Shown: positions 27,822-28,116 of the stretch, piece after piece
Position numbering within the stretch: the first letter of the stretch is position 1
How the letters are laid out: the number at the start of each line of letters is the position of its first letter
NCBI GenBank assembly: GCA_003599625.1
Contig: QZIU01000035.1
Location: forward strand, 1-35,744
Origin: Candidatus Parcubacteria bacterium
Lineage (GTDB): Bacteria > Patescibacteriota > Minisyncoccia > UBA9983
Length of the DNA: 35,744 bases
Direction: 5' to 3'
The notes under the pieces: model-generated
The model's input: the letters and a program-made list of their open reading frames with translations, nothing else
Database searches by the model: none
What the model was told of the DNA's origin: nothing
Made by a program: the position numbers and the translations under genes

Positions 27822-27910
27822 GGATATGTATTAGAATGCCCGTTCCATATAATAAGAGAACAGGAAGCACTCACATGATTATATAATAGCAAACCCAGGA
27901 AAAAAGGTCA

Positions 27911-28043
27911 AATGGACCTACGGGGAATTGATTTTCTTATGGAAAATCCCGGGGTTAAATTATTGCTTCGCAATATAATTTAACCCTTCAATTCCCCACG
28001 CAAGCCAAGCAGTTGGCTTACTGTAGGTCATTTCACTTCGTTC
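27911..28043. repeat. Structured element with a duplicated tRNA-Ala 3' end
   Basis: 27911-27931 is a 21-bp exact copy of 28044-28064, the 3' end of tRNA-Ala(GGC). Between the copies, nested pairings are visible: GACCTAC (27915-27921) with GTAGGTC (28023-28029); GGGGAATTGA (27922-27931) with its complement (27988-27997); AAGCCAA/TTGGCTT (28002-28008, 28013-28019); and a bulged GGGTTAAATTATTGC hairpin (27952-27986). The whole can fold as a branched structure ending in a tRNA acceptor/T-arm sequence. It lies immediately 3' of the tRNA gene. Confidence 0.8.
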
Positions 28044-28045
28044 AA

Positions 28046-28116
28046 TGGACCTACGGGGAATTGAACCCCGCCCTCGCCCATGCCATGGGCGCGTTCTACC
28101 GATGAACTATAGGCCC
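28046..28116 (-). tRNA. tRNA-Ala (anticodon GGC)
   Basis: A 71-nt cloverleaf: acceptor GGGCCTA / TAGGTCC with the G3:U70 alanine identity pair, short D-arm GTTCATCGGTAGAAC, anticodon stem CGCCC/GGGCG with loop ATGGCAT (anticodon GGC), and T-arm CGGGGTTCAATTCCCCG. The discriminator is A. CCA is not encoded. Its 3' 19 nt plus two flanking bases are duplicated at 27911-27931. Confidence 0.95.

Follow-up and report, generated by a model that had tools for sequence, protein, structure and literature searches.

Immediately 3' of the tRNA-Ala(GGC) gene of a Patescibacteria genome lies a short folded stretch. It is probably a single copy of a dispersing DNA element, small and non-coding, that has the architecture of the E. 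coli RtT repeats and is set in the tRNA T loop at the C56|R57 boundary. The window that was analysed is one whole contig (C6; 35,744 nucleotides) of the 0.9-Mb, 35-contig genome G000, among whose relatives are Ca. Campbellbacteria MAGs. Exact 21-bp copies of the tRNA-Ala(GGC) 3' end were located at 27911-27931 and 28044-28064, with 112 bp between them, so that the duplicated end reported in the original prediction is real, and the nested arms that it described in the spacer (GACCTAC/GTAGGTC and GGGGAATTGA/TCAATTCCCC) are there as well. The 17 last letters of the tRNA are repeated at the far end of the element and occur once more, inverted, inside it. No open frame was found in the unit.

Read along the tRNA strand, the gene is followed by the linker TTGAACGAAGTGAAAT, the inverted acceptor GACCTAC, a side hairpin, the inverted T arm GGGGAATTGAA, the hairpins P2 and P3 (CGGGATTTTCCATAAGAAAATC) and finally the direct copy AATTCCCCGTAGGTCCA (Table 1). 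The side hairpin is a module that is also present at other tRNAs. The spacer had been expected to fold, and it does so far better than shuffled sequence: the RNA fold of the 135-nt trailer reaches -52.0 kcal/mol versus -27.5 +/- 3.8 for shuffles (z -6.4), its DNA fold -34.3 (z -8.3), and none of 200 shuffles folds as well in either case. The DNA fold of the tRNA strand accommodates all named helices at once, and the predicted fold of the tRNA-sense strand of the unit is a three-way junction of P1, P2 and P3.

Table 1. Parts of the tRNA-Ala gene and of the unit behind it, with positions in the window.
Feature	Position	Strand	Basis
tRNA-Ala(GGC), host gene	28046-28116	-	ARAGORN and Rfam RF00005
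Proximal direct copy (tRNA-Ala positions 57-73)	28046-28062	-	inside host gene
Linker TTGAACGAAGTGAAAT with ACGAAGT mini-hairpin	28030-28045	-	sequence
Outer part of stem P1: GACCTAC, the acceptor 3' strand inverted	28023-28029	-	sequence and folds
Side hairpin GTAAGCCAA-CTGC-TTGGCTTGC, splitting the inverted arm into two halves	28000-28021	-	sequence and folds
Inverted T-arm copy (GGGGAATTGAA), inner part of stem P1	27987-27997	-	sequence and folds
P2 hairpin with GCGAAGC tip; sequence differs among copies, pairing kept	27952-27986	-	sequence, folds, alignment
P3 motif GGGATTTTCCATAAGAAAATC, hairpin conserved in six genome copies and in relatives	27930-27950	-	motif search, alignment
Match to covariance model R1 (type A core and T-arm arms), 67 bits, E 4e-16	27922-27997	-	
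Distal direct copy of tRNA positions 57-73, running on into the ancestral downstream flank	27913-27929	-	sequence search; G001 site comparison

The unit is not confined to tRNA-Ala. In the search for further copies that had been proposed at the outset, its spacer core was found behind five further tRNAs of G000, in each case directly 3' of the gene (Val, Gln(TTG), Gln(CTG), Ser(GCT) and Lys(TTT)), and P3 (GGGATTTTCCATAAGAAAATC, with at most three mismatches) occurs seven times in this genome, six of them at tRNAs. Inspection of the 3' sides of all 41 tRNAs of G000 revealed more units with other cores; those of type B stand behind each of the two Glu tRNAs and, arrayed in tandem, behind Ser. 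Where the G000 units are clear, the direct copy extends from R57 to the discriminator base, with an inverted copy of that same tRNA end in between. The plan is tRNA, linker, inverted 3' end of the own tRNA, structured core and direct copy of positions 57-73, and the units measure about 80-220 bp. One tRNA-Pro (L028, G000 C15:4882-5200; L259) is apparently interrupted in its anticodon loop by a unit, which holds a complete second tRNA-Pro within a long stem and then a type A core.

A survey of four genomes (G000, G001, G005 and G010; 163 tRNAs with enough flank) found an exact copy of positions 57-73 at most 300 nt downstream of 24 tRNAs, one of which was an adjacent tRNA gene and was later removed, versus 0.3 expected with swapped probes from other tRNAs. 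With up to three mismatches allowed, and leaving out two matches that were neighbouring tRNA genes, units stand behind 35 of the 163 (9 in G000, 5 in G001, 12 in G005 and 9 in G010). The inverted arm fits its own tRNA end better than a median of 98.5% of 134 other tRNA ends; it is poor in some units (Ile, Phe and one Glu). Altogether the Patescibacteria units fall into at least five core families and occupy up to about a quarter of the tRNAs of a genome.

Alignment of 12 type A units supports the three-helix structure, with 95% of cells paired versus 33-55% when the structure is slid along the alignment, and 37 double-change cells versus 11.7 in shuffled data. P1 covaries by construction, therefore P2 and P3 are the independent evidence: compensatory changes affect five of the nine P2 pairs, and P3 shows a G-C to A-U exchange in three units. 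In distant families the stems and loops of P3 differ, again with compensation. Covariation of the arms, proposed at the outset as a test of the fold, is therefore seen in the core stems, and this pattern of substitutions indicates that they are under selection. Run over 384 genomes of the class, the covariance model R1 matched at 47 places, spread over 23 of them. Of the 42 matches examined, 37 follow a tRNA on the same strand by no more than 400 nt on its 3' side, and these tRNAs are of many kinds. Among 380 genomes drawn from the whole phylum, only one besides that of the window matched R1, and weakly. A P3-like core (CTAGGGGATTTYCTAYAAGAAAATCATAG) is also centred in near-perfect palindromes outside tRNA genes in the genome G084 (L057, L073, L075, L076, L077, L132); these are locus-specific, with arms of about 40-54 bp where measured.

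Comparison of related genomes points to turnover of the units. In G005 the units of two tRNA genes, Gln(TTG) and Leu(CAG), have an identical 48-nt core, while their arms differ and fit the respective tRNA, and both strong type A units of G001 share the same P2, which differs from that 48-nt core. The arrays also differ between the sister genomes G010 and G005: the order at Leu(CAG) is C-A in the former and A-C in the latter, the three G010 units at Gln(CTG) compare with one of another type in G005, and Leu(GAG) has two units in G010 and one in G005. In some cases the unit type is kept at the same tRNA between sister species. For the window itself, the comparison with a relative that had been suggested proved informative: in G001, of the same genus, the tRNA-Ala orthologue is a single tRNA followed directly by TTGACTTTTATTCTC..CATGTGAGCG, the counterpart of the G000 flank after the distal copy (TTTGACCTTTTTTCC..CATGTGAGTG). 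Judged by this alignment of flanks the G001 locus, which has no second copy, is an empty site, with the caveat that its tRNA-Ala has itself diverged from that of the window.

The composition of the loops bears on which molecule folds. The tRNA strand of 37 element stretches contains 41 instances of CGAAG and none of CTTCG, versus 50:36 in the background, and 34 of the 41 instances have a further closing pair. The d(GCGAAGC) sequence forms an unusually stable DNA mini-hairpin with a Tm of 78 C (PMC4686876). Loops of the RNA type, GNRA or UUCG, do not rank among those common in the elements. The bias suggests that the folded form is the tRNA-sense strand, which may be DNA; perhaps it is single-stranded DNA, since the DNA-stable C(GAA)G mini-hairpins stand on the tRNA strand only.

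The closest known counterpart is RtT (RF00391, rttR), the 178-bp repeats of tyrT/tyrV. In the E. coli tyrT region tyrV is followed by three tandem 178-nt units. All three have an inverted T arm GGGGAAGGAT, then GAGAA, then the core, and close with a copy of the tRNA-Tyr 3' end. As in Patescibacteria, the units stand in tandem 3' of a tRNA, each terminated by a copy of its 3' end, and an inverted T-arm copy precedes the core (GGGGAAGGATGAGAA at Tyr). This arm is likewise retargeted: GAGGATGAGAA at tRNA-Pro in E. coli and GTGCAGGTGAGAA at tRNA-Lys in Providencia each fit the tRNA concerned. The GAGAA junction recurs in some Patescibacteria units (GGGATGAGAA, GGGACGAGAA). RtT copy number varies, from 1 to 14 places per E. 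coli genome with a median of 3. Two traits of the RtT plan, a unit 3' of a tRNA that closes by directly repeating the 3' end of that tRNA and an inverted T arm of the own tRNA before the core, are found in Patescibacteria and in enterics. The core sequence, however, is unrelated to that of the window: RF00391 gave no match to 27880-28060 at E<=5, whereas E. coli copies score 133-138 bits, and an Rfam search returned no family match for the unit. By plan the window unit would be classed as RtT-like, by sequence as lying outside the Rfam family.

The anatomy, the T-loop boundary, the arms that match the own tRNA, the shared cores, the tandem arrays and their reordering, the empty site and the compensation in core stems can all be read from the compared sequences, and from them we infer how the element might move and re-match its inverted arm. 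The unit sits precisely at the C56|R57 step of the T loop and begins with its own copy of positions 57-73; because the unit brings this copy along, the tRNA stays whole. Behind it follow the linker, the inverted tRNA end as 5' strand of P1, then P2 and P3, and last the original 57-73 in its displaced position. What is copied or recombined may be the folded single strand, perhaps ssDNA. The T-arm palindrome, which is conserved, would be the place where this happens in a new tRNA gene, so that the new 57-73 arm would come from the target tRNA, and the inverted arm could then be re-matched through fold-back (quasi-palindrome) copying. No transposition event or intermediate was seen among the units compared. 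An element of this kind is probably selfish or neutral. The original suggestion of a miniature element that targets tRNA 3' ends gains from the copies at other tRNAs, the empty site, the covariation and the shuffled tandem arrays, but its target has to be redefined as the T loop, between C56 and R57, and not the extreme 3' end. The regulatory trailer or the decoy RNA suggested alongside it may also apply.

We found no dedicated integrase or other enzyme tied to the units, no phage or plasmid copies of the unit were matched, and viral contigs contained no exact P3. A Y1/RAYT transposase was rejected as the mover: G005 and G084, with 2 and 13 P3 copies, are without Y1_Tnp (PF01797), and the RAYT flanks examined are without a P3-like hairpin. 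REP/RAYT palindromes resemble the units as small dispersed hairpins with a conserved flank; in contrast to them the units lack a Y1 transposase association and target tRNA genes. RAYT-type Y1 transposase genes are themselves common in these genomes (L114-L124; up to 14 matches in G009), several of them between gene-specific palindromes. A tyrosine integrase was dismissed as well, since a Phage_integrase search found typically one Xer-like gene per genome, and G044 has none yet has a unit. The sole Xer-like match of G000 (L236/L240, C26:9775-10476) falls into two stretches about 265 bp apart in one 447-codon open frame, which suggests that its catalytic domain has received an insertion. The units share with integron attC sites and their cassette arrays the folded single-strand site, the inverted arms, the tandem array and the conserved fold with variable hairpins, but the units are gene-less, their target is the T loop and their arms match the host tRNA; the same Phage_integrase search met essentially Xer-like genes and no IntI-type integrase.

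Islands and phages that integrate into tRNA genes by a tyrosine recombinase at the T-loop sublocation also insert there and restore the 3' part of the tRNA. The units differ in being about 100 bp long, in carrying an inverted copy of the target and in having no integrase; none of them (about 80-220 bp) contains an integrase frame. The CPR rRNA insertion sequences, from the same radiation, are likewise short, lack ORFs and interrupt genes for stable RNAs, but their hosts are rRNA genes, and 'tRNA' is absent from the main text of that report (PMC11270868). TIGR-Tas arrays, which are long alternating dual-repeat arrays beside Nop proteins (PMC12045711), were dropped from consideration. No endonuclease frame lies in the units, and the GIY-YIG genes of these genomes are separate inserts. 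Small genes of this kind lie in or beside tRNA or tmRNA genes at about 18 of 27 loci examined, in nine genomes (L207:662-1185; L274, L275, L296, L281, L297, L284, L291). At tRNA-Leu(CAA) and tRNA-Val(TAC) a repeat of the 5' part of the tRNA, reaching as far as the anticodon loop, precedes the gene, which is followed by a full tRNA, and in a G010 tRNA-Lys with GIY-YIG the break is at the T loop, the same place as in the units.

Several other origins can be weighed against a dispersing DNA element. The trailer might be a functional RNA, cut at its tRNA-like 3' ends to give a stable small RNA, or tuning maturation in the manner of RtT if the inverted arm competes for the 3' strand of the tRNA. 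It is structured and covarying, it lies nearly always on the same strand 3' of tRNAs, and the E. coli counterpart is annotated as the RtT sRNA processed from the tyrT transcript; a conserved RNA function would likewise be compatible with the long-lived units of one type at one tRNA in sister species, which count against mobility. We nevertheless consider this reading somewhat unlikely, given the patchy presence (35/163 tRNAs, 23/384 genomes), the unrelated cores at the same tRNA, the varying order and number in arrays, and the DNA-type GAA triloops where RNA-type GNRA or UUCG loops would be expected. A replication accident, in which template switching at the T-arm palindrome yields small tandem inversion-duplications with cores as fillers copied from elsewhere, is a slightly weaker candidate. 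A tandem inversion duplication has the same succession of direct, inverted and direct copies, and the P3-like hairpins of G084 lie in locus-specific near-perfect palindromes away from tRNAs. Such accidents, however, would not readily fix the boundaries between C56 and R57 and at the discriminator base, nor account for defined core families across many genera with stems under selection.

Two further explanations involve a protein. The units could be passengers of the small GIY-YIG endonucleases of tRNA genes, spread by repair after the nuclease cuts. That most of these loci adjoin tRNA or tmRNA genes, one of them interrupting tRNA-Lys at the T loop, agrees with this, but most of the inserts duplicate the 5' part of the tRNA, many are located next to the tRNA gene or within its anticodon loop, and no GIY-YIG gene adjoins the RtT repeats of E. 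coli in the stretch that is annotated, which makes the explanation improbable; as a source of the enzyme the GIY-YIG genes are a lead only. Tyrosine-integrase islands leave a direct copy that extends from the T loop to the 3' end of the tRNA, and the copy seen here is of that kind. It is nonetheless very improbable that the unit is the remnant of such an island, with the T loop as attB and its genes lost, as all units are about 80-220 bp long, in tandem and with target-matched inverted arms, and no integrase beyond Xer was found.

A dispersing element with RtT architecture thus remains the reading that we prefer for the window. A bolder and rather doubtful extension is that the Patescibacteria units and E. 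coli RtT form one unrecognised gene-less mobile class, which would move as folded tRNA-sense ssDNA, land in the T loop of any tRNA and rebuild its inverted arm on the new tRNA. If this is true, target specificity would be copied from the host at every move. So far Rfam lists RtT as a family whose annotation is that of a small RNA processed from a single tRNA operon; that its plan recurs in a distant bacterial radiation, at about one fifth of the tRNA genes in four genomes and with re-matched arms, makes it a general phenomenon. The spread of units and the rebuilding of their arms can now be tested directly, in E. coli as well. Duplicated tRNA 3' ends are not always the marks of deleted islands, and our data suggest that small folded sequences have a widespread means of establishing themselves in tRNA genes that had gone unrecognised.
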